From the NCBI RefSeq assembly GCF_000426725.1, contig NZ_AUFX01000004.1, positions 1-64,000 on the forward strand: 64,000 bases of DNA. The letters are read 5' to 3'. Below the pieces are notes generated by a model. It was not told the DNA's origin. It worked only from the letters and a program-made list of their open reading frames with translations, and made no database searches. The first letter of the stretch is position 1. Each line of letters opens with the position of its first letter. This document shows positions 27,414 through 37,935 of this stretch, piece by piece. The position numbers and the translations under genes were made by a program. Source of the DNA: Sporocytophaga myxococcoides DSM 11118 (GTDB taxonomy: Bacteria; Bacteroidota; Bacteroidia; Cytophagales; Cytophagaceae).

Positions 27414-27443
27414 CAGGCGACGTTTCATTTTTCTTTCCGGTCC
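27414..27443 (+). promoter_or_regulatory. bipartite promoter-like motif, copy 1
   Basis: CAGGCGACGTTT (27414-27425), 14 bases, then GTCC (27440-27443), 35 bases before the ATG at 27479. The same two elements with the same 14-base spacing precede the gene at 29683. This could be an ECF sigma promoter (inference). Confidence 0.55.
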
Positions 27444-27478: not shown

Positions 27479-29356
27479 ATGAAAACAAAACTCTACTTGA
27501 AGGGATTGCTCACGCTAGCAATTGTTCCTGTCTTTTCAATCAACGTCAATGCTCAAAAAACCGAGCCGCAGGGACTCAAGAGCATGATAAACAGTGTACC
27601 TCCCAGCCCATTGGCCAATCCGCATGTACATTCGCATATAAAACAAAATCCTCATACAGAAAGTGATTCGCTTTCGCTTGTAATAGATGCCCCTCTCACA
27701 TCAATCTTCACTTTGACAATCTCTGATACTGCAAATGTTGTAATTGATACAGTAAGCGTACATGGCGGAGAGAATGCACTTCTTCTTCCAATAGGTCATT
27801 ATTCCTATACTCTGACAGATGCACAAGGACTTATTGTTTCTAAAGGCAAAATTGATGTAAAGGCTCCGCATGTACATTCACATGTAAAACAAAATCCTCA
27901 TGCTGAAAGTGATTCGCTTATTCTTGTGGTGGATGCCCCTCTAGCATCAATCTTCACTTTGACAATCTCGGATTCTGCAAATATTGTAATCAATTCATTA
28001 AGCGTACATGGTGGAGAGAATGTGCTTCCTGTTCTTCCAATAGGCCGTTATTCCTATACGCTGACAGATACACAAGGACTTGTTGTTTCTAAAGGCAAAA
28101 TAGATATTAAGGCTCCGCATATACATTCGCATGTAAAACAGAATCCTCATGCAGAGAGCGATTCTCTTACTCTTGTTATAGATGCACCACTATCAGAAAT
28201 CTTCACTTTGACGATTTCAGATACTGCAGATGTTGTAATCTATACATTAAGCGTACATGGTGGAGAGAATGCACTTCCAGTTCTTCCGATAGGCCAATAT
28301 TCCTATACGCTGACAGACGCTCAGGGACTTATTGTTTCCAAAGGCAAAATAGACGTTAAGGCTCCACATGTACATTCGCATGTAAAACATAGTCCTCCAG
28401 CAGAGAGCGACTCTCTTATTCTTGTTATAGATGCACCACTATCAGAAATCTTCACTTTGACGATTTCAGATACTGCAGATGTTGTAATCAATATATTAAG
28501 CGTACATGGTGGAGAGAATGCACTTCCTGTTCTTCCAATAGGACATTATTCCTATACGCTGACAGACGCTCAGGGACTTATTGTTTCCAAAGGCAAAATA
28601 GATGTTAAGGCTCCACATGTACATTCACATGTAAAACATAATCCTCCAGCAGAGAGCGACTCTCTTATTCTTGTTATAGATGCACCACTATCAGAAATCT
28701 TCACTTTGACGATTTCCGACACTGCCAAGGTTGTTATAAATACTTTAAGCGTGCATGGTGGAGAGAATGCACTTCCTGTTCTTCCAATAGGACATTATTC
28801 CTATGCACTCGCAGATGATCAAGGAATTATTGTTTCTAAAGGTAAAATAGATGTAAAAGCTCCGAAAATTAAAAGCTCCATCCGTCCTGGACATGTTCAC
28901 TCAGGCGACACCTTATCCATCCAGATAGATGCCGATGTAGCACAATCATTTACATTAAATATTTATACAATAAGTGATAGTCTTGTACAGACATTAACTG
29001 TCAATGGAGGTTCCAATACATTGCCAACTCTTTCTTCAGGATTTTATCAATATGAACTATTGAACAGTGATGGATACAAAGTATCACAAGGTAAAATAGC
29101 TATACATCCTCCAAAAGTTCATACTCTTATAGCTCCAAATCCATCAAATGCGGGAGAAGCAAATATTTCCATTGACGCACCTGCTTCTGAAATATTTACC
29201 TTAAATATTTATGATGCAGCAGATCTTGTTTCAACACAACCTATAACTGGTGGTGTTACTTTACTTCCTCCAACACTGGATTCCGGAATTCACTTTTACA
29301 CTGTTGTGAATGCCAAGGGAGACATAGTATCTAAAGGAAGAATCATGATTTATTAA
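27479..29356 (+). CDS. secreted protein of seven tandem sorting-domain-like modules
   Basis: A 625-residue protein: signal peptide (about 1-25, ending VNAQ), a short linker, then seven modules starting near residues 48, 130, 213, 296, 379, 462 and 545. The period is 83 residues (249 bases; 246 for the first). Each has a PNP/QNP-like opening, SDSLxLxIDAPxSxIFTLxI, a gly-rich turn, GxYSYTLTDxxGxIVSKGKI. This follows the plan of a T9SS type A sorting domain (PNP, amphipathic strands, G-x-Y-x-Y, K-x-I). The last module ends the protein and probably serves as the real signal. Modules 1-5 are nearly identical; 6 and 7 have diverged. There is no enzymatic domain. Function is unknown. Confidence 0.8.
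   Translation: MKTKLYLKGLLTLAIVPVFSINVNAQKTEPQGLKSMINSVPPSPLANPHVHSHIKQNPHTESDSLSLVIDAPLTSIFTLTISDTANVVIDTVSVHGGENALLLPIGHYSYTLTDAQGLIVSKGKIDVKAPHVHSHVKQNPHAESDSLILVVDAPLASIFTLTISDSANIVINSLSVHGGENVLPVLPIGRYSYTLTDTQGLVVSKGKIDIKAPHIHSHVKQNPHAESDSLTLVIDAPLSEIFTLTISDTADVVIYTLSVHGGENALPVLPIGQYSYTLTDAQGLIVSKGKIDVKAPHVHSHVKHSPPAESDSLILVIDAPLSEIFTLTISDTADVVINILSVHGGENALPVLPIGHYSYTLTDAQGLIVSKGKIDVKAPHVHSHVKHNPPAESDSLILVIDAPLSEIFTLTISDTAKVVINTLSVHGGENALPVLPIGHYSYALADDQGIIVSKGKIDVKAPKIKSSIRPGHVHSGDTLSIQIDADVAQSFTLNIYTISDSLVQTLTVNGGSNTLPTLSSGFYQYELLNSDGYKVSQGKIAIHPPKVHTLIAPNPSNAGEANISIDAPASEIFTLNIYDAADLVSTQPITGGVTLLPPTLDSGIHFYTVVNAKGDIVSKGRIMIY
27620..29356 (+). repeat. coding tandem repeat, 249-bp unit, seven copies
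   Basis: Unit starts at 27620, 27866, 28115, 28364, 28613, 28862 and 29111. Copies 1-5 share long identical stretches, which suggests recent expansion or homogenisation; units 6 and 7 have many changes. Copy number could vary between strains. Confidence 0.95.
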
Positions 29357-29380
29357 GTGCAGGTTATAATGAATAAATTG

Positions 29381-29413
29381 AGCCCATTGGTCGCGAGATC
29401 AATGGGCTTTTTA
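29381..29413 (+). terminator. terminator after the module-repeat gene
   Basis: AGCCCATTG (29381-29389) pairs with CAATGGGCT (29400-29408), followed by TTTTT. The rest of 29357-29682 holds only the promoter-like motif at 29588. Confidence 0.85.
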
Positions 29414-29587: not shown

Positions 29588-29617
29588 CAGGCGACGTTTA
29601 AAAAAAAGTACCTGTCC
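29588..29617 (+). promoter_or_regulatory. bipartite promoter-like motif, copy 2
   Basis: CAGGCGACGTTT (29588-29599), 14 bases, then GTCC (29614-29617), 65 bases before the ATG at 29683. It is identical in both elements and spacing to 27414-27443, while the spacer sequences differ, as expected for a binding site. Confidence 0.55.
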
Positions 29618-29682: not shown

Positions 29683-32600
29683 ATGAAAAAAACCGCATTT
29701 TCCTTTTTCTGCTCAGGCATTTGCAAAAGGGCACTTGTTTGCTTGTTTATACTAATTCATGTTAATGCATTATCCCAGAACGATCTACCAGCTCCTCAGG
29801 CAAATTATCAAACCATTCCAGCAGGAAGTTTTATAATTCCCATGGATAATAATTATCAATCCATTGTGCCCGCCGGACAGGCTCCCTTTAACCTGAAGGC
29901 ATATGGCCTGGTTAATTCATTGCTTCAAAATGGAATACCTGTTAAATGGATCATCAACTCAAATAAACAAAGAGATGATGTTGACCTTACTGCTTTAGCA
30001 GAAAGGGTAGCACCGGGATTCATAGCAGGTACCACAATTGATTTCAGAGGAGGTCCTTTTATAGTTCCGGATACAGTTTTGCCTTGTGGACAAACTACAA
30101 CAGAGATTATAAATGCTTTCGGAAATAATGTAGTAGTCTATAAACTACTTAGCAATACTTCCGCAGATGTTAGATACACAGTCACGCACAGACCTAAAAT
30201 AGCAGTATTTAATAACGGAGGCAATCAGCAAATACACATGAAAATACTTGATGCAGCAGGCATCAGTTATGATATAATGGATGCCGCACATATTGAAGAA
30301 CTTAAAAACTGTTACACCTTTGCTTCAGAACCACATGCTGAAGTTTCACAAGTAAGCCAGGCAGTTATTGATGGTGTAAAGGCATTTGTAATGAGTGGAG
30401 GAAACTTTCTGGCCCAGTGCCATGCTATAGACACATACGAAAGCAGGGGATTTTTCCAGACAACTGCTGGTATTGAAAGTGTTAATATAAAAGTTTCACA
30501 TCATTACCCAAATGCCAATATGGCTTTTGCCCAGATCAACGGTCCAGCTATGGAAAATTCCGGTGGTTCCATAGATAACTACAGGCTAAAAGCCGGATCA
30601 AGCTGGAGACCTTACACCTACCCCATCATAACCAATTTAAGTTCAGACACCATCATAGCGACAGGAGCACACCTTATTGCTCCTTCTGCTCCTGGTGGAA
30701 ATGTCTTTTATCTTGGAGGCCACGATTACTCAAAAAGTGGTGGCAAACAAAATACCACCCCCAATCTCACCAATATGGCCAGTGTCAACGATTTACGTTT
30801 ATATCTCAACGCTTCTTTAATTCCTAGTGGAAACACACACGGAATTTGGGCAAATGCCGGTGAGCCAAGCCATATACTAAGCTGTACAGATAGTGTTAGA
30901 TTAGGATGCACAGAGGTTGGCCCTCCTGGCTCAACCTTTTTATGGAGCCCGCCTGAAGGTCTTAGCTGCACAACATGCCCAAATCCAGTTGCTAAACCCA
31001 AAATCACAACCACTTATAAATTACAGGTAATCAATACCTGTATTGCAATAGATACAGTAAGAGTAATTGTAGCACCTAAGCCTGTTGCCCAGTTCACCAA
31101 TACAACTGTTTGTCAGGGAGAGGTTACTACGTTTACAAACCAATCTTCCAATTCAAATTATTGGCAATGGAATTTCGGAGACCCGGCATTGGGTGCCGGC
31201 AATACATCTTCTGTTAAGAATCCTTCTCTCATTTTCAGTGCTGCAGGAAACTTTACAGTCACTCTTATTTCCGGTACCGATCCAAGCTGTTCTGATACAA
31301 TTGTAAAGATTATTACAGTAAGGCCTTTACCTGATATTAAAGTAAACTCAGATACTATTTGTCTTGGCGAGTCTATATTATTAACTGCTTCCGGAGCAAC
31401 CACGTATTCATGGTCTACAGGAGCAACTTCCAGTTCGATTAGTGTTAAACCCACAACCACCACAAGCTATATTGTAAAGGGGGCTAAAGATGGTTGTATT
31501 TCAAGAGACACTGCCACAATAACTGTAAGTCCTCTGCTAATACCTGCCGTGATATCTACCAATGTTACTTGTTCTGGAGGATCTGATGGAAGGGCCACCG
31601 TTAATTTGAGCGGCGGGATACCTGAATATTCATATAGTTGGAACAGCAATCCTGTACAAACCACCGCCCAAGCTATAGGCTTGCCAGCTGGAAATTATAC
31701 GGTTAAAATAACTGATATAGCAGGCTGTTCTTCAGTCGCATCTGTTTCAATTAATCAACCGGATCCACTTTCTGCAACTGTCTTAAGCACCAATGCACTT
31801 TGCAACAGCAATGATGGATCTGCCACAGTTACTGTTGCAGGAGGCACGCCTTTTTATTCTTATAGTTGGAACACCAATCCAATTCAGACAACTTCTAAGG
31901 CAATAAACCTTTCATCAGGTAATTATATAGTAACAATTACTGATACCAATGCTTGTTCAATCATCGCATCAGCATCAATTGCGGAATTTCACACGATGAC
32001 ATTAACCATGACGTCCTCAAATGTATCCTGCAACGGAGGTTCAGATGGTTCTGCTATTGTAAGTCCTTCGGGAGGAATACCTGCATATTCTTATAGTTGG
32101 AATACTATTCCTGCTCAAACTACAGCACAAGCGGTAAATCTTCAGGCTGGTGTTTATACTGCAACCGTAACAGATGCTAATGGATGTATTTCTACCGCTA
32201 CTGCAACAGTCAAAGAGCCGGATCCCTTATCGCTTTATGTGAGTTCTGCAAATCCAACTTGTATTTCGAGTGGAGAGGCCACCGTTACTGCAGCAGGAGG
32301 AACACCTTCTTACTCTTATAGATGGAATTCCAGTCCAGAACAGACAACAGCTACAGCAATAAATTTACCTGTAGGAAATTTTGTTGTAACTGTTACAGAT
32401 ATTAATAATTGCCAGATGGATACAACTGTTATTCTGGCTGCTCCACCCGAACCAATTGCTGATTTTAGTTTCAATAGCCCTTGTGTGGGCTCTCCTACCA
32501 CATACAAAGATCATTCTACGCTGAGCTCAGGAGATATCATTAAAAGAGAATGGGACTTCGGAGATCAGGTCTCGGGGATTCATAATTTCTCCATAGAAGA

Positions 32601-33483
32601 CGCTCCTTCACATACATATGGAACTTTCGGAACATTCAATACAAGATTAATAGTAACATCAAATCTCGGGTGTAAAGATACTATCCTTAAACCGGTAGAA
32701 GTTTATCCAATACCAGTAGTTAAATTTGGGCCATTCGAAAAAGGCTGTGGTGCAATCTGTGTGGATTTCAAAGATTCCTCCACTGTTATCAATGGTTTTA
32801 TTCAAAGCTGGTCTTGGAATTTTGGAGATCCGAATAACCCTAATAATACTTCGAATCAGAAAAACCCAACTCATTGCTACAATCAACCGGGAACCTATGA
32901 CGCAACTCTTAAGGTAACTTCCAATCATGAATGTTCATCGCAACTGACCATTCCAGATATTGTCAAGGTTTATAAGAAACCTTCTGTCGATTTAGGACCT
33001 GATCAGAAAATATGTACTGAGATTGAAATAAACGCATCCAGAATGCTAAATGCAGGTCCAGGAAGGAAATATTTATGGAAGCCTACGGGAGACACTGTAC
33101 AAACCATATATGTCTACAAACCCGGGACGTATAATGTAACTGTTACAGACGAAAATAACTGTTCAGCATCTGAACTTGTAAACGTAAGAGAGGTCTGTCC
33201 GCCACGACTCTTTGTGGGAAATGCATTTAGTCCTGATGGTGATGGAATTAATGACCGGTACATTACACATTACGCACATGTTGGAAAGTTTCAGTTGCTT
33301 ATCTTTAACCGCTGGGGAGAAATTATTTTTGAATCAAGAGATCCCGATCACTACTGGGATGGAATATACAGAGAAGAACCAATGCCAGTGGGAGTTTATG
33401 CATGGATCATCACCTATGAAGGAGATTCCGAGGAATACAGAGGGCCTTATAAACTAGAAGGAAGTGTTACTGTTGTCAGGTAA
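29683..33483 (+). CDS. adhesin-like protein: amidotransferase-like domain, PKD and SprB repeats, type B T9SS C-terminus
   Basis: A 1266-residue secreted protein. Signal peptide about 1-31. The N-terminal domain (about 35-395) has a class I amidotransferase-like look: a hydrophobic strand, then MSGGNFLAQC246HAID as a possible nucleophile elbow. Then come a PKD domain (about 465-545, WNFGDP), an Ig-like domain (550-620), four SprB-type repeats of about 75 residues (625-925, GGxPxYSYxWN..PxQTT), two more PKD domains (925-1100) and a CHU_C/gliding-motility C-terminal domain (about 1180-1266, NAFSPDGDGIND, FNRWGE). Such type B termini depend on a PorP/SprF-like partner, and one is encoded two genes downstream. 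Confidence 0.88.
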   Translation: MKKTAFSFFCSGICKRALVCLFILIHVNALSQNDLPAPQANYQTIPAGSFIIPMDNNYQSIVPAGQAPFNLKAYGLVNSLLQNGIPVKWIINSNKQRDDVDLTALAERVAPGFIAGTTIDFRGGPFIVPDTVLPCGQTTTEIINAFGNNVVVYKLLSNTSADVRYTVTHRPKIAVFNNGGNQQIHMKILDAAGISYDIMDAAHIEELKNCYTFASEPHAEVSQVSQAVIDGVKAFVMSGGNFLAQCHAIDTYESRGFFQTTAGIESVNIKVSHHYPNANMAFAQINGPAMENSGGSIDNYRLKAGSSWRPYTYPIITNLSSDTIIATGAHLIAPSAPGGNVFYLGGHDYSKSGGKQNTTPNLTNMASVNDLRLYLNASLIPSGNTHGIWANAGEPSHILSCTDSVRLGCTEVGPPGSTFLWSPPEGLSCTTCPNPVAKPKITTTYKLQVINTCIAIDTVRVIVAPKPVAQFTNTTVCQGEVTTFTNQSSNSNYWQWNFGDPALGAGNTSSVKNPSLIFSAAGNFTVTLISGTDPSCSDTIVKIITVRPLPDIKVNSDTICLGESILLTASGATTYSWSTGATSSSISVKPTTTTSYIVKGAKDGCISRDTATITVSPLLIPAVISTNVTCSGGSDGRATVNLSGGIPEYSYSWNSNPVQTTAQAIGLPAGNYTVKITDIAGCSSVASVSINQPDPLSATVLSTNALCNSNDGSATVTVAGGTPFYSYSWNTNPIQTTSKAINLSSGNYIVTITDTNACSIIASASIAEFHTMTLTMTSSNVSCNGGSDGSAIVSPSGGIPAYSYSWNTIPAQTTAQAVNLQAGVYTATVTDANGCISTATATVKEPDPLSLYVSSANPTCISSGEATVTAAGGTPSYSYRWNSSPEQTTATAINLPVGNFVVTVTDINNCQMDTTVILAAPPEPIADFSFNSPCVGSPTTYKDHSTLSSGDIIKREWDFGDQVSGIHNFSIEDAPSHTYGTFGTFNTRLIVTSNLGCKDTILKPVEVYPIPVVKFGPFEKGCGAICVDFKDSSTVINGFIQSWSWNFGDPNNPNNTSNQKNPTHCYNQPGTYDATLKVTSNHECSSQLTIPDIVKVYKKPSVDLGPDQKICTEIEINASRMLNAGPGRKYLWKPTGDTVQTIYVYKPGTYNVTVTDENNCSASELVNVREVCPPRLFVGNAFSPDGDGINDRYITHYAHVGKFQLLIFNRWGEIIFESRDPDHYWDGIYREEPMPVGVYAWIITYEGDSEEYRGPYKLEGSVTVVR

Positions 33484-33489
33484 TGAATT

Positions 33490-33795
33490 ATGATAAGAGA
33501 GAAATCAACAATAATACTTCTAACATTGGCAAGCCTCCTTTTTACTGCGTGCCAAAGCGAAAGGTATAGAAAAGACAGAAAAAACAAGTTGAGCAAACAC
33601 ACGATTAAAGCAAGTGATTATCTTGCTAAACAAGCTATTGAGCTTACGCAGGGAAATATAGAAAACAGAGAAAACACAGAAAAGAAAGACAGAAAAAGAC
33701 AGGAAAAGCTACAAAAAGAGCTTAATGAAGCCAATAAAAGAACAAGTAAAGTTGCTCCAGTAAATAAGCACAAAGGCAATTTTAAATTTTATTAA
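33490..33795 (+). CDS. small charged lipoprotein
   Basis: A 101-residue predicted lipoprotein: a hydrophobic N-terminus with lipobox LFTAC (Cys near 21), then a Lys/Arg/Glu-rich, probably helical or coiled-coil body (residues 25-90). I recognise no family. It sits 6 bases after the adhesin-like gene and 4 bases before porP/sprF, so it is almost certainly part of that operon. It may anchor or assist the surface complex (inference). Confidence 0.75.
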   Translation: MIREKSTIILLTLASLLFTACQSERYRKDRKNKLSKHTIKASDYLAKQAIELTQGNIENRENTEKKDRKRQEKLQKELNEANKRTSKVAPVNKHKGNFKFY

Positions 33796-33799
33796 GAAT

Positions 33800-34843
33800 A
33801 TGTTGCGAGCTCAATTTCCTTTCTTATTGACTACATTTCTGATTTATTGGATATTCAATATAAATAACTGCATTGCACAAGACATTCAATATTCTCAGTT
33901 TTATGCAAATGTATTGTACCTGAATCCGGCATTTGCAGGTAATGCTCATGCACTAAGAGGAATGTTCCATCAACGTATTCAATGGCCAGCACTGGATGCA
34001 AAATATATTACTTCTCACGTTTCTGTAGACAGTTATTTCACCAAAGCCAACAGTGGAATTGGGTTTATGGTATATAAAGACTGGCAAGGAGCAAATATTA
34101 TTTCATCAACAGAATCTGCATTGCAATATGCCTATGAACTTCACCTTAGCAATAAACATTCTTTCCGGGCAGGAATACAGACAAGTTATGTATCCCGCAA
34201 TATCAATTATTCCGGATTGTATTTTCCAGATCAGTATAGTTCAAATGGATACCTTGGTAAACAAACCAATCAACCGACCAACAATGATATCCTTCAATAT
34301 TGGGACTTTACCTCTGGTGGTATATTTTACTCAGACAACTATTGGGTTGGAGTTACATATGCTCATATGAATCAACCAAATCAATCCTTTTACGGAGAAG
34401 AAAGTCGTCTTCCATATAAACTTGATTTTATCGGAGGCTTTCGCATAGACTTTGAAAAGAAAAACGAATTTAAAGAAGGCTATCAGGGAAGAGATATTTA
34501 TCTGACCCCTACTGCTCATTATAAGCTTCAGGGGAAATCAGATCAGTTTGACCTTGGCCTTTATCTTCTATACGATCACCTGATTACTGGATTCTGGTAT
34601 AGAGGTATTCCTTTAATGAAGCACTACAGGTGGGGCCTGCAAAATAATGAATCAATTGTATTGCTTGCAGGATGGCGTGTAAATAGTTTGAGCATAAGTT
34701 ATAGCTATGATTACACAGTATCAAAACTTGCTCTCGCGAAAACAGGAGGATCACATGAACTTAACATAACATACTTATACGATATATCCAGAAAGAAAAA
34801 GAAAATCATGAAGAGAATACCTTGTCCCCATTTTTATAAATAA
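33800..34843 (+). CDS. PorP/SprF family T9SS outer-membrane protein
   Basis: A 347-residue outer-membrane beta-barrel. The signal peptide ends NCIAQ (about 26). The family hallmark follows: DIQYSQFYANVLYLNPAFAG near 27-46, then alternating amphipathic strands to the end. In Flavobacterium johnsoniae SprF is needed for surface export of SprB, which has a type B C-terminus. The adjacent 1266-residue type B protein is therefore the likely client. Third gene of a tight operon. The 207-base gap to the sigma gene shows no clear terminator. Confidence 0.9.
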   Translation: MLRAQFPFLLTTFLIYWIFNINNCIAQDIQYSQFYANVLYLNPAFAGNAHALRGMFHQRIQWPALDAKYITSHVSVDSYFTKANSGIGFMVYKDWQGANIISSTESALQYAYELHLSNKHSFRAGIQTSYVSRNINYSGLYFPDQYSSNGYLGKQTNQPTNNDILQYWDFTSGGIFYSDNYWVGVTYAHMNQPNQSFYGEESRLPYKLDFIGGFRIDFEKKNEFKEGYQGRDIYLTPTAHYKLQGKSDQFDLGLYLLYDHLITGFWYRGIPLMKHYRWGLQNNESIVLLAGWRVNSLSISYSYDYTVSKLALAKTGGSHELNITYLYDISRKKKKIMKRIPCPHFYK

Positions 34844-35050: not shown

Positions 35051-35623
35051 ATGGACAAATCAATAATAACAGCTGCGGCAGAGGGTGATAAACAAGCTTT
35101 CAGAACTATATTCAATTATTTTGTGCCAAGATTGAGGCCCATAGCACTGAGATATGCAAGAACGGAATTTGAAGCAGAAGACATCCTTCAGGAAGCGTTT
35201 GTAAAAGTTTATCGTAACCTGAAAACATATAAGTTCGAAGGATCCTTTGAAGGCTGGATTAAAAGAATTGTGATCAATACTGCATTAAATCACTACGACA
35301 AATATAAAAAAGACTACCAGCTTGATAATATTGAAATCTATGAAGAAGAAGAACTAGGATCTGAAGAGGCCAAAGATATTGATGAAGTTGAATCTTCAGA
35401 ACTTTTATCCATCTTACAGAAACTCCCCAATGGATACAGACTTGTAATGAATCTGTACGTATTAGAAGAGTATTCACATAAAGAAATCGGGCAAGCCCTT
35501 GGTATCTCAGAAGGAAGTGCCCGTTCGCAATATTCAAAAGCTCGTAAACATATAAAAAAATTACTAGCAGGGCTGCGAAATAACAATAAAGCTAATCTTA
35601 TTAATAAAGACTCTACTATCTAA
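35051..35623 (+). CDS. RNA polymerase sigma factor, ECF family
   Basis: A 190-residue sigma-70 family factor. Region 2 covers about 10-80 (FEAEDILQEAFVKVYRNL, then FEGSFEGWIKRIVINTALNH) and region 4 about 115-175 (LPNGYRLVMNLYVLEEYSHKEIGQALGISEGSARSQYSKAR). It stands directly upstream (4-base gap) of a FecR-type anti-sigma gene, the usual Bacteroidota pair. Its target promoters may include the bipartite motif found before the two surface-protein genes at 27.4 and 29.6 kb (inference). Confidence 0.92.
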   Translation: MDKSIITAAAEGDKQAFRTIFNYFVPRLRPIALRYARTEFEAEDILQEAFVKVYRNLKTYKFEGSFEGWIKRIVINTALNHYDKYKKDYQLDNIEIYEEEELGSEEAKDIDEVESSELLSILQKLPNGYRLVMNLYVLEEYSHKEIGQALGISEGSARSQYSKARKHIKKLLAGLRNNNKANLINKDSTI

Positions 35624-35627
35624 ATAA

Positions 35628-36668
35628 ATGAAAGAGCTCGGAAAAATAGATTCTTTCAAGGATCGAATAAAAAATAAAATGGATGACAGTCCTGTATATA
35701 AAGGCTCGGAAGACCTTTTATGGTCAAAGGTGATTGATAACATTGAAGAAAATGAAGCAAAAGAAAAATCTGTTATCATAAAAATTCATCCGTATATCTG
35801 GTATGCTTCTGCCGCATTAGTCATGGTCAGTTTATTTATAGGTATGCTCTATTGGAAGGAAAAGCAAGATACCGGAGTGGTAGCTACTAGTAAACAACAT
35901 CAGAAAGAATCATCTCAAATTATTGAGAATAAGAAAACAGAAATAAGTGTAATCAATTCACCAACTGTTGATAAAAAGATATCTGCGGAATCAGATGTTA
36001 ATATTAATAATAATAAATCAACAGAACTTACGACTCAGATTGCTTCTGAAGATAAAATTAGTGAATATGATTTACCAGATGGCTCCCATCTTACCTTAAA
36101 TAAACTAGCTTCTGTAGAGGTTAAACCTAATTTTAAAAAGGAAAGAAGTCTCTCAATGCAAGGAGAAGTATACTTTGAAATTGAGCCAGACAAGACACAC
36201 CCATTTAACATTTATTTTGGCAATCATCGCTTGCTTGTGGTAGGTACCAAATTCAATGTGCGGAATATAAAAGAAGAAATTTACAAAGAAATTTCAGTGA
36301 CTGAAGGGATTGTTAAGGTATTTCCTAATAATCAGGGAAAAGGCATAGAAGTAAAAGCCGGAGAACAATTAAAAATAAATCCGGAAGGATTAACCGAATC
36401 AGTAAAAACAGATTCCTACAGTTTTATCTTCTGGAAAGTTGGTATTCTTGAATTCAAAAATTCAACTATGGAAGATGTTGCTGTACTTATGTCAAGGCGC
36501 TATAACCAAAAAATAAATATTGCACATTCCATTTCAAAATGTACCTTTACAGGAGATTTTACGCAACTCCATCTGGATGAAGCTATTCAAATCTTAAAGA
36601 TCACAACTTCGTATAAGGTAGAAAAAAGAAAGGATGAAATTTACATTTCGGGAGAAGGATGTAAGTAA
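35628..36668 (+). CDS. FecR family anti-sigma regulator
   Basis: A 346-residue inner-membrane protein: cytoplasmic N-terminus (1-52), one membrane helix (about 54-76), a low-complexity Ser/Lys/Asn linker, a FecR domain (about 145-245, with LPDGSHLTLNKLASVEV and GEVYFEI) and a C-terminal DUF4974 domain (about 270-345, FKNSTMEDVAVLMSRRYN). Such proteins hold ECF sigma factors and relay signals from outer-membrane partners. Its 3' end overlaps the next gene by 35 bases, suggesting translational coupling. Confidence 0.92.
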   Translation: MKELGKIDSFKDRIKNKMDDSPVYKGSEDLLWSKVIDNIEENEAKEKSVIIKIHPYIWYASAALVMVSLFIGMLYWKEKQDTGVVATSKQHQKESSQIIENKKTEISVINSPTVDKKISAESDVNINNNKSTELTTQIASEDKISEYDLPDGSHLTLNKLASVEVKPNFKKERSLSMQGEVYFEIEPDKTHPFNIYFGNHRLLVVGTKFNVRNIKEEIYKEISVTEGIVKVFPNNQGKGIEVKAGEQLKINPEGLTESVKTDSYSFIFWKVGILEFKNSTMEDVAVLMSRRYNQKINIAHSISKCTFTGDFTQLHLDEAIQILKITTSYKVEKRKDEIYISGEGCK

Positions 36669-37935
36669 GCTGGGATTCTTCCTGGCGTTTTTTTTATTTT
36701 CTTTTATTGCTCTTTCTCAAACCCAATCAGAGAATTCACAATTCGTGAACAAATTCTCTGAATCAATCCTGGAAAAAACCATTAACTTCTCCTGGAACGG
36801 TGGTAGTTTGGCAGATGCTTTAAATAAAATCGGAGATGAAAATGAAATAAAATTTTCTTTCTCGAACAGTACTATTGCTGATGTTAAAGTAGCACCCTGT
36901 AATTTCAGCTCAGCGAAGTTCTCTGATTTGCTTTATCAGATTTTTAAAAATACAGGCTTTAATTATGTGCTGGTTGGGAGAATAGTCGCAGTATATAGGG
37001 ATGAAAAAAACATACCTTCTAAAGATGTTACTCCCGATTCTACAAAGATCAAATCAAATGAGAAAGATCCAGCGATGAGCCAAGTTTATACTCCGGCAAA
37101 CACACAAGAGTTACCCAGGCGTGAAAGGAAAATACTCAATCGCATATACAGAAAGGAATTAAGGTGGGCAGCTCGTTACAGAAAACAGAAAGAAAACAGG
37201 GACACTGTTAACTCAGAAAAAAACGCGAAGGCTTACAAACCACTAAATAATGATGGAAATTTTCGTTATTTCATTTCCACAGATTTGGCTCTACACACCA
37301 ATCTTTTAAAGTATCAAAGCAATTCACAACTTCGCTGGAAGGATGATCTTCTTTGGAAAAGTAAATCTGAGATCAGCATCTATCCAACATTTCTTTTCGG
37401 AATAAATGTAAAGTCTTTTATGTTTAGTACCGGGCTGGGATTTCAGAATATCAGAATTCATAATACTCTCAGAGATACCAAAAAAGAATCGCCTAAGCCG
37501 CCAACTCCGCCTGCTCCAGTACCAGAAAACACTAACTTATATGTAACGGAAAGATATTCCTTGGTTTCTATACCTGTAACAATTATGTACAACAAATGCC
37601 GGAAAAACCTTTGGTTTGGTATAGGTGGTGGCGTTCGTTTTAATATCATTAACGGAAATGAAGCCATGAGAAATAAACTTAAGAAATATTATAATGATTC
37701 AACCTCAACAAAGGGTTATTTTGATACTTATAAAAAATTGATGCCTGAGTTATTTGCAGATATTGCTATAGGATATAATTGGAGGAAGAGATTTATTTTC
37801 AAAGGTGGCTTGACATATATGTATTCCTTAAATCCAATCTATGAAAATGCTCTTTACAATTTAAACGTCAATGCAGTAGTTTTTAAAGTTGGATTCTATT
37901 ACAGATTTAATATTTACAGAAGAAGTGTAAAGTGA
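36634..37935 (+). CDS. STN-domain protein with C-terminal outer-membrane barrel-like region
   Basis: A 433-residue secreted or outer-membrane protein. The signal peptide ends near IALSQ (about 29). A secretin/TonB short N-terminal (STN) domain lies at about 48-125 (LADALNKIGDENEIKFSFS). A Lys/Arg-rich middle (130-215) leads to a beta-barrel-like region (about 220-433). STN domains of TonB receptors contact FecR-type regulators, so with the two upstream genes this forms a sigma/anti-sigma/sensor module. It is not a full TonB receptor: no plug domain is seen. The start overlaps the FecR gene by 35 bases. Confidence 0.75.
   Translation: MKFTFREKDVSKLGFFLAFFLFSFIALSQTQSENSQFVNKFSESILEKTINFSWNGGSLADALNKIGDENEIKFSFSNSTIADVKVAPCNFSSAKFSDLLYQIFKNTGFNYVLVGRIVAVYRDEKNIPSKDVTPDSTKIKSNEKDPAMSQVYTPANTQELPRRERKILNRIYRKELRWAARYRKQKENRDTVNSEKNAKAYKPLNNDGNFRYFISTDLALHTNLLKYQSNSQLRWKDDLLWKSKSEISIYPTFLFGINVKSFMFSTGLGFQNIRIHNTLRDTKKESPKPPTPPAPVPENTNLYVTERYSLVSIPVTIMYNKCRKNLWFGIGGGVRFNIINGNEAMRNKLKKYYNDSTSTKGYFDTYKKLMPELFADIAIGYNWRKRFIFKGGLTYMYSLNPIYENALYNLNVNAVVFKVGFYYRFNIYRRSVK

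Follow-up and report, generated by a model that had tools for sequence, protein, structure and literature searches.

Tandem reuse of a T9SS type A sorting domain in Sporocytophaga myxococcoides and its regulon-like association with an ECF/FecR switch and a type B adhesin

INTRODUCTION

Known substrates of the T9SS are cut directly upstream of their sorting domain. Sorting domains (CTDs) of type A have seven strands (PMC12618676, PMC10994853), and the accessible text of the latter source describes an almost invariant lysine near their C terminus. According to the translocon structures in the same text, the conserved type A motifs set the fold and not the contacts, except possibly for one lysine (PMC10994853). 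A connection between such domains and gene regulation is known from Porphyromonas gingivalis, where PorA is a CTD protein that takes part in T9SS sigma-factor signaling (PMC7712824, available excerpt). For Flavobacterium psychrophilum, the accessible part of PMC9723704 reports that the sprB operon is transcribed from a sigma-54 promoter and another promoter type and that some T9SS genes have ECF-type promoters.

Here we describe a gene of S. myxococcoides DSM 11118 that lies in the first 64,000 nucleotides of contig NZ_AUFX01000004.1, the whole stretch of DNA analyzed, which we call the window. A first-pass annotation, made from the letters of the window, had described its product as a protein built of seven tandem modules resembling T9SS sorting domains. 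We conclude that the array is a sorting domain reused in tandem and that, together with an ECF/FecR switch and a type B adhesin, it makes up a regulon-like set.

RESULTS

The gene and its surroundings have the following layout.

27479..29356, plus strand: gene of the seven-module protein, 625 aa, exact open reading frame
27479..27556, plus strand: signal-peptide-like N terminus, 26 aa, ending in NVNAQ (by inspection)
27557..27622, plus strand: linker of about 22 aa between the signal-peptide-like start and module 1
27623..27868, plus strand: module 1, 82 aa
27869..28117, plus strand: module 2, 83 aa
28118..28366, plus strand: module 3, 83 aa, predicted seven-stranded sandwich
28367..28615, plus strand: module 4, 83 aa, predicted seven-stranded sandwich
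28616..28864, plus strand: module 5, 83 aa
28865..29113, plus strand: module 6, 83 aa, penultimate type (TIGR04183, 18.9 bits; tree)
29114..29353, plus strand: module 7, C-terminal T9SS type A sorting domain, 80 aa (TIGR04183, 29.7 bits)
29380..29409, plus strand: terminator-like hairpin of 13 pairs, then a T-rich tail (consensus scan)

The seven tandem modules are real: Tandem Repeats Finder gives a period of 249 with 5.0 copies, 88% matches, and a score of 1764, far beyond chance, and the modules abut head to tail up to the last residue of the protein. Some details of the first-pass annotation had to be corrected. The module length of 83 residues applies to modules 2 to 6 (82 in module 1, 80 in module 7), module 6 lacks the PNP-like opening that had been ascribed to every module, and the linker precedes module 1 where the annotation had noted no other domain after the signal peptide. 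To call five units almost identical in DNA was too strong, as modules 1 to 5 show 82 to 94% DNA identity and 80 to 92% protein identity among themselves; modules 6 and 7 are 36 to 44% identical to the other modules. The 599 residues after the first 26 include no cysteine, no tryptophan, and 33 histidines, many of which form the HxHxH stretch that opens modules 1 to 5, possibly a metal site at the module junctions. This stretch (window 27623-28864) is also present in G002 and G003, two other Sporocytophaga genomes, and absent from a five-module paralogue in the same genome as the window. The terminator-like hairpin 3' of the gene suggests that the gene is probably its own transcript, the scan giving 13 such sites in 12 kb versus the 7.7 expected from shuffles.

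Each module had been said to have the element order of a type A sorting domain, and internal modules without a sorting-domain HMM match would speak against the annotation. By the cut-off of TIGR04183 (23 bits), assignment to the type A family holds for module 7, which scores 29.7 bits over residues 6 to 78 of its 80 and lies at the C terminus, and not for modules 1 to 6, which are internal by position. Module 6 is just under the cut-off with 18.9 bits, and none of modules 1 to 5, taken singly, matches the model at an E value of 10 or less, so that these five are, on their own, such modules without a match. With Pfam PF18962, module 7 scores 15.1 bits, under the cut-off of 27.

The relationship of the internal modules to the sorting domain becomes visible through relatives rather than through single-module HMM matches. 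Modules 3 and 7 show 45% identity over 78 columns (E = 3e-16), and the identity between module 3 and module 2 of the paralogue in the same genome, L016, is 51% (E = 2e-30). All four internal modules of L016 match TIGR04183 near full length with 17.6 to 21.3 bits, under the cut-off, and in that scan 9 of 10 internal modules of relatives match at an E value of 1 or less; several internal modules of the paralogues carry a PNPS opening. At the same threshold, matches were obtained for 23 of 32 modules scanned, six of the 32 being terminal (the set was drawn from 34 modules, the near-copies window module 4 and L012 module 3 being left out). A profile of 21 internal modules, made without window module 4, L012 module 3, the terminal modules, and all but one of the six penultimate modules, matched 20 canonical CTDs of the same genome with a probability of 86.6 and an E value of 4.5e-6 over 64 columns, starting from the PNP region. 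As controls, the internal-module profile gave 0.3 with PKD and a moderate 53.9 over 28 columns with SprB repeats, so part of the signal is a generic G-x-Y hairpin. With an HMM built from the 20 local CTDs, modules 1 to 5 score 1.2 to 2.9 bits, within the shuffled range (top, 7.2 in 2,040 shuffles), and modules 6 and 7 score 8.4 and 9.3 bits, slightly above it; in three five-module paralogues, 7 of 12 internal modules are above the shuffles (9.0 to 15.9) and 5 are not (1.9 to 5.5). Judged by sequence, homology of the internal modules to the type A sorting-domain family, bridged by relatives, is well supported, and modules 1 to 5 can be considered derived sorting domains.

The site before the last strand, matched by eye after hmmalign had left that end unaligned, holds lysine in 25, arginine in 6, and another residue in 3 of the 34 modules. 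Arginine occurs in five of the six terminal modules and in module 1 of L014; its presence in the five terminal modules does not favor a special role of this position in the signal copy. Other family assignments were rejected. Over the whole protein, Ppnp (41.2; cut-off, 25) and, barely, DUF5121 (23.7; cut-off, 23) pass, no stretch passing alone in either case, and both were taken as summed weak repeat matches; YqbG and DUF3199 are under their own cut-offs. A PDB sequence search returned an ice-binding protein as the best match (E = 0.0063) and three more at E values of 0.6 to 0.95, none of which was used, and the same search with modules 6 and 7 gave no match.

The AF2 model of modules 3 and 4, based on 19 two-module rows, has a mean pLDDT of 88.6 and a pTM of 0.65 and shows seven strands in each module; its agreement with the type A CTD fold is one of strand count, in a predicted model. 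Foldseek found generic Ig/FnIII pairs in the PDB and no T9SS CTD among the best 50 of 1,517 matches (E value of 10 or less). A BFVD search returned mainly phage tail and Ig/FnIII proteins, with "Gliding motility-associated, C-terminal domain" at rank 13 and "Secretion system C-terminal sorting domain" at rank 16, which is weak support at most. Modules 3 and 4 are thus predicted to be seven-stranded Ig-like sandwiches, and no sorting domain is named in those best 50 PDB fold matches.

A search of 98 relatives placed the tandem gene in five genomes, that of the window included: four are of the same genus (G002 and G003 are Sporocytophaga, and G001 is inferred to be so), and G066, an uncultured Cytophagales, is of another family. 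Module counts vary between five and seven among these genomes: seven in the window, G003, and G066, and five in G002 and in the paralogues of the own genome, G001, and G002. Paralogue L016 lies on another contig and has 444 aa and five modules. In G003, the reading frame of the tandem gene (L013 8166-10057) shifts between modules 1 and 2, possibly an assembly error, G003 being a MAG, and is on another contig than the adhesin/ECF cassette of that genome.

A tree was made of 34 modules, with G003 outside the module alignments. The six terminal modules group together (93/86), as do the six non-terminal modules of G066 (98/97) and window modules 1 to 5 with modules 1 to 3 of L012 (94/97), the internal window and G002 modules standing apart from those of G066. 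Module 6 clusters with its penultimate counterparts from the four other same-genus proteins in the alignment (98/97). Among the terminal, G066, and window/L012 branches, only that of G066 reaches the star threshold, with a long-branch warning elsewhere. The separate window/G002 and G066 groups indicate that the internal copies expanded separately by lineage. Between the window and G002, the internal pairs W3/S2 and W5/S3 have dN/dS ratios of 0.12 and 0.10, respectively, and the ratio is 0.16 for module 6 and 0.12 for module 7; it is 0.05 to 0.19 between the own-genome and G002 paralogues and 0.13 to 0.49 between copies inside the window gene. Selection on the tandem modules is therefore purifying.

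A five-module query of 395 genomes across the phylum matched only its own genome (E value of 1e-6), so the other known carriers evidently lie outside that draw, and a module profile found four others with one module each among 295 genomes of the class (E value of 1e-8). Both broad searches detect relatives of the window array, not every conceivable tandem sorting domain. The tandem sorting-domain architecture is real, conserved, and rare in the genomes sampled. None of the open-access titles and abstracts listed concerned tandem type A sorting domains, one promising phrase having dealt with the modeling of several CTDs at once, and the seven-module gene is not identified in the accessible parts of two Sporocytophaga proteome/transcriptome papers (PMC6247017, PMC10992098). 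In three genomes, an indoleamine 2,3-dioxygenase family gene adjoins the five-module paralogue or lies one gene off (L015 7688-8920, L016 10907-12124, and L017 6824-8053); PF01231 was scanned in the L005 copy only, and the others were assigned by similar first residues.

Downstream of the tandem gene lies a second set of genes.

29683..33483, plus strand: SprB-repeat/PKD surface protein with a type B sorting domain, 1266 aa (Pfam SprB, PKD, CHU_C)
33490..33795, plus strand: small lipoprotein-like protein, 101 aa, LFTAC (by inspection)
33800..34843, plus strand: PorP/SprF-family protein (PF11751, 233 bits)
35051..35623, plus strand: ECF sigma factor (Sigma70_r2, r4_2)
35628..36668, plus strand: FecR-type anti-sigma factor (FecR, FecR_C)
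36634..37935, plus strand: protein with an STN-like domain and a beta-rich, barrel-like C-terminal part, 433 aa (PF07660, AF2)

The first of these proteins scores 42.8 bits with TIGR04131 (cut-off, 35), and its type B sorting domain together with the PorP/SprF gene, probably the type B shuttle, identifies a SprB-type adhesin operon. The ECF sigma factor gene followed by that of a FecR anti-sigma factor is the arrangement of cell-surface signaling. The 101-aa lipoprotein-like protein has no Pfam match over the cut-off, and its gene is kept in all four same-genus genomes, the own genome included. For the 433-aa protein, PF07660 is found in 3 of 3 homologues, the two scores listed (17.3 and 20.1 bits) being under the cut-off of 28.4. 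The AF2 model of this protein, of low confidence (mean pLDDT, 51.5; about 70 to 80 over the STN-like part), has an STN-like first part and then eight long strands. It does not qualify as a TonB-dependent receptor barrel, its Pfam matches at an E value of 10 or less being STN and one weak unrelated match, and a PDB sequence search with the STN/barrel family gave no match.

The set from the adhesin to the STN gene is kept in G001, G002, and G003, the STN gene being split in G003 (L073 5601-6876), and is rearranged in G066 and G008, where no counterpart of the 101-aa gene is evident. In G008, which has the adhesin, PorP/SprF, ECF, FecR, and STN genes, the tandem gene has no match at an E value of 1e-5; it therefore seems to have joined an adhesin/ECF cassette that is older. 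Triads of ECF, FecR, and STN/barrel-like genes recur, with a second one in the own genome (contig C7), one in G002 (C8), and one in G008; the STN/barrel-like genes are at window 36634-37935, L074 9278-10540, L075 9157-10431, and L076 8451-9725. The C7 and C8 triads have no SprB-like gene in the 19 kb inspected, and the G008 triad has one. Possibly, the triads are a family of TonB-free surface-signaling systems. Elsewhere in the window, the minus strand of 42658-63989 carries a run of large carbohydrate-active proteins; six of the eight were scanned and gave GH95, alpha-galactosidase, SASA esterase, GH43, NPCBM, and GH10, along with CBM6/35 modules, two of the six having Por_Secre_tail at an E value of 1e-5 or less.

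A promoter-like element is common to the tandem gene and the adhesin operon.

27416..27443, plus strand: bipartite promoter-like element GGCGACGTTT-N14-GTCC, upstream of the tandem gene (27479)
29590..29617, plus strand: another copy of this element, preceding the adhesin operon (29683)

The strict form, GGCGACNTTTN{12,16}GTCC, has exactly two sites in the 6.34-Mb genome, before 27479 and 29683, as has the 12-mer CAGGCGACGTTT; backwards controls gave no site for the 12-mer and one for the strict bipartite form. As the pattern was first read off the two window sites, this pair is not an independent test, and the paralogues, G001, G003, G066, and G008 are better ones. In five genomes, GGCGACGTTTN{11,16}GTC has seven sites (2, 1, 2, 2, and 0), all of them before a tandem or SprB-like gene, and its backwards control has four. 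GGCNNCGTTT, with two bases free, lies 49 to 103 bp upstream of all 13 genes concerned (7 tandem and 6 SprB-like) and of none of five comparison genes selected by us, four of which encode ECF factors and the fifth a CTD protein; own sequence amounting to 203,004 strand-bases contains it five times, three of the sites being those of tandem or SprB-like genes. The GTC half follows 13 to 14 bases on in 11 of the 13 genes, the exceptions being the two G066 genes, which have a variant of their own in common, GGCTGCGTTTTGAG; for the tandem genes alone, it is present in six of seven, G066 missing. The element is still common to both loci in G001 and G003, where they are on separate contigs. The relaxed form GGCNNCGTTTN{12,15}GTC is by itself not specific (six own-genome sites versus seven backwards). 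Three of its sites are those of the adhesin operon and of both tandem genes. The remaining three, of which C10 has two and C20 one, were rejected as regulon members, lying in or beside frames that have no T9SS link by eye. Within 200 bp of the four ECF genes tested, the element was not found; in Sporocytophaga, transcription from the adhesin promoter may run on into the ECF gene, and we infer that the ECF factor encoded at 35051 reads the shared element. This element and the linked adhesin/ECF/FecR locus, neither of which appears in the first-pass annotation, are the strongest clues to function.

DISCUSSION

The explanation that we consider reasonably probable is that the sorting domain has been reused as a rod-forming repeat in a protein whose terminal copy directs export and whose gene is controlled together with the adhesin. 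The passenger of this T9SS substrate would have been built by duplication of its own type A sorting domain. Module 7 would most likely be the only export signal, taking the protein through the translocon via PorV, and PorU would process it; the genome encodes two full-length homologues of PorU and, over the cut-off, two members of the PorV family, so module 7 has its machinery. The PorU homologues lie close together (G000:C4:547118-550474 and 552868-556224), the second directly before PorV, and the genome encodes at least 150 type A CTDs (the best 150 of 394 candidates). Modules 1 to 6 have drifted from the signal consensus and most likely form a rod of Ig-like beta-sandwiches, a presumed role that is the default for Ig-like tandems and would make them a surface stalk or coat element. 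The drift of modules 1 to 5 against the stability of module 7 favors a single working signal with a passenger rod. The protein is most likely made together with the type-B-sorted adhesin and the PorP/SprF shuttle, and the ECF sigma/FecR switch encoded in the adhesin operon would most likely control both. Among the possibilities raised by the first-pass annotation, the conversion of a sorting domain into a structural repeat is the best supported, whereas a polymeric fiber and a multivalent decoy or scaffold have no direct support.

It can be argued that modules 1 to 6 are an unrelated Ig/FnIII-type repeat that resembles a sorting domain and that only module 7 is one. The lack of TIGR04183 matches in modules 1 to 5, their background scores with the local CTD model, the generic Ig/FnIII fold, and the moderate profile match of SprB repeats are all in line with this, but an unrelated repeat would hardly be 45% identical to module 7 over 78 columns at an E value of 3e-16, nor does it fit the paralogues, whose internal modules match TIGR04183 near full length and in several cases have a PNPS opening, or the 64-column profile match to local CTDs. 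We consider it improbable. The modules abut with a repeated junction, KAP-HVHSH, and with two full-length PorU homologues in the genome one may also imagine a polyprotein that is cut between modules by the PorU sortase, so that single modules are released or anchored; by inspection, however, there is no cut-site-like spacer between the modules, and this alternative is very improbable.

The internal modules might instead be working T9SS ligands, of PorV, PorU, or the translocon, and the protein a multivalent scaffold, a decoy, or an occupancy sensor that feeds the ECF/FecR switch. Lysine in 25 and arginine in 6 more of the 34 modules just before the last strand would agree with this, as would the promoter-like element in common with the ECF/FecR locus and the example of PorA. 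Moreover, an extension C-terminal to the CTD is tolerated in P. gingivalis (PMC11285876, available part), and therefore an internal CTD need not be blind. On the other hand, the recognizable signal profile is lost in modules 1 to 5, the terminal modules remain a separate group in the tree, and the lysine site was matched by eye and is occupied by arginine in five of the six terminal modules, so that we regard this alternative as unlikely. A larger scheme, more doubtful still, makes the tandem protein part of a self-contained T9SS surface-sensing circuit in which a non-TonB STN/small-barrel transducer would read the T9SS-built surface via FecR and the ECF factor; the sigma factor would drive the type B adhesin with its shuttle and a multivalent export-signal array that titrates or reports PorV/translocon occupancy.

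In this array an export signal has been multiplied until it became cargo, and the internal modules of close relatives have retained more of that signal. The array and its relatives make it testable what sets a functional sorting signal apart from a domain that only has the family fold, a point on which structures give no answer because type A signals have a poorly conserved contact surface. The ECF/FecR/STN locus suggests that gliding Bacteroidota have a dedicated surface-adhesin switch without a TonB-dependent receptor.

One of the closest known systems is the T9SS type A sorting domain (TIGR04183/PF18962): module 7 passes TIGR04183, and the internal modules are homologous, with a seven-stranded sandwich predicted for modules 3 and 4. 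Whereas that domain usually occurs as a single C-terminal copy, here six more copies make up the whole passenger, and modules 1 to 6 do not pass the TIGR04183 cut-off. The nearest precedent that we found for a CTD protein tied to sigma-factor signaling is PorA (PGN_0123) of P. gingivalis, in the available text of PMC7712824 a small T9SS CTD protein with no enzyme domain that is tied to an ECF pathway. However, PorA combines a single FimH-like Ig domain with a single CTD, and its action is upstream of PorXY-SigP (PMC7712824), whereas here the modules are tandem and CTD derived, and the link with a sigma factor consists of the promoter-like element and the neighborhood. The linked operon resembles that of a SprB-type adhesin with its PorP/SprF shuttle in having SprB repeats, a type B sorting domain, and PorP/SprF, but it adds ECF, FecR, and STN/barrel-like genes and has a promoter-like element in common with a tandem type A gene. 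With cell-surface signaling through ECF, FecR, and a TonB-dependent transducer, as outlined in the accessible part of PMC11637429, the locus shares an ECF and a FecR gene beside an outer-membrane candidate with an STN-like domain. It differs in that there is no TonB-dependent receptor, the candidate transducer being a protein of 433 aa for which a small barrel is predicted with low confidence, and in that the apparent targets are surface proteins and not uptake genes.
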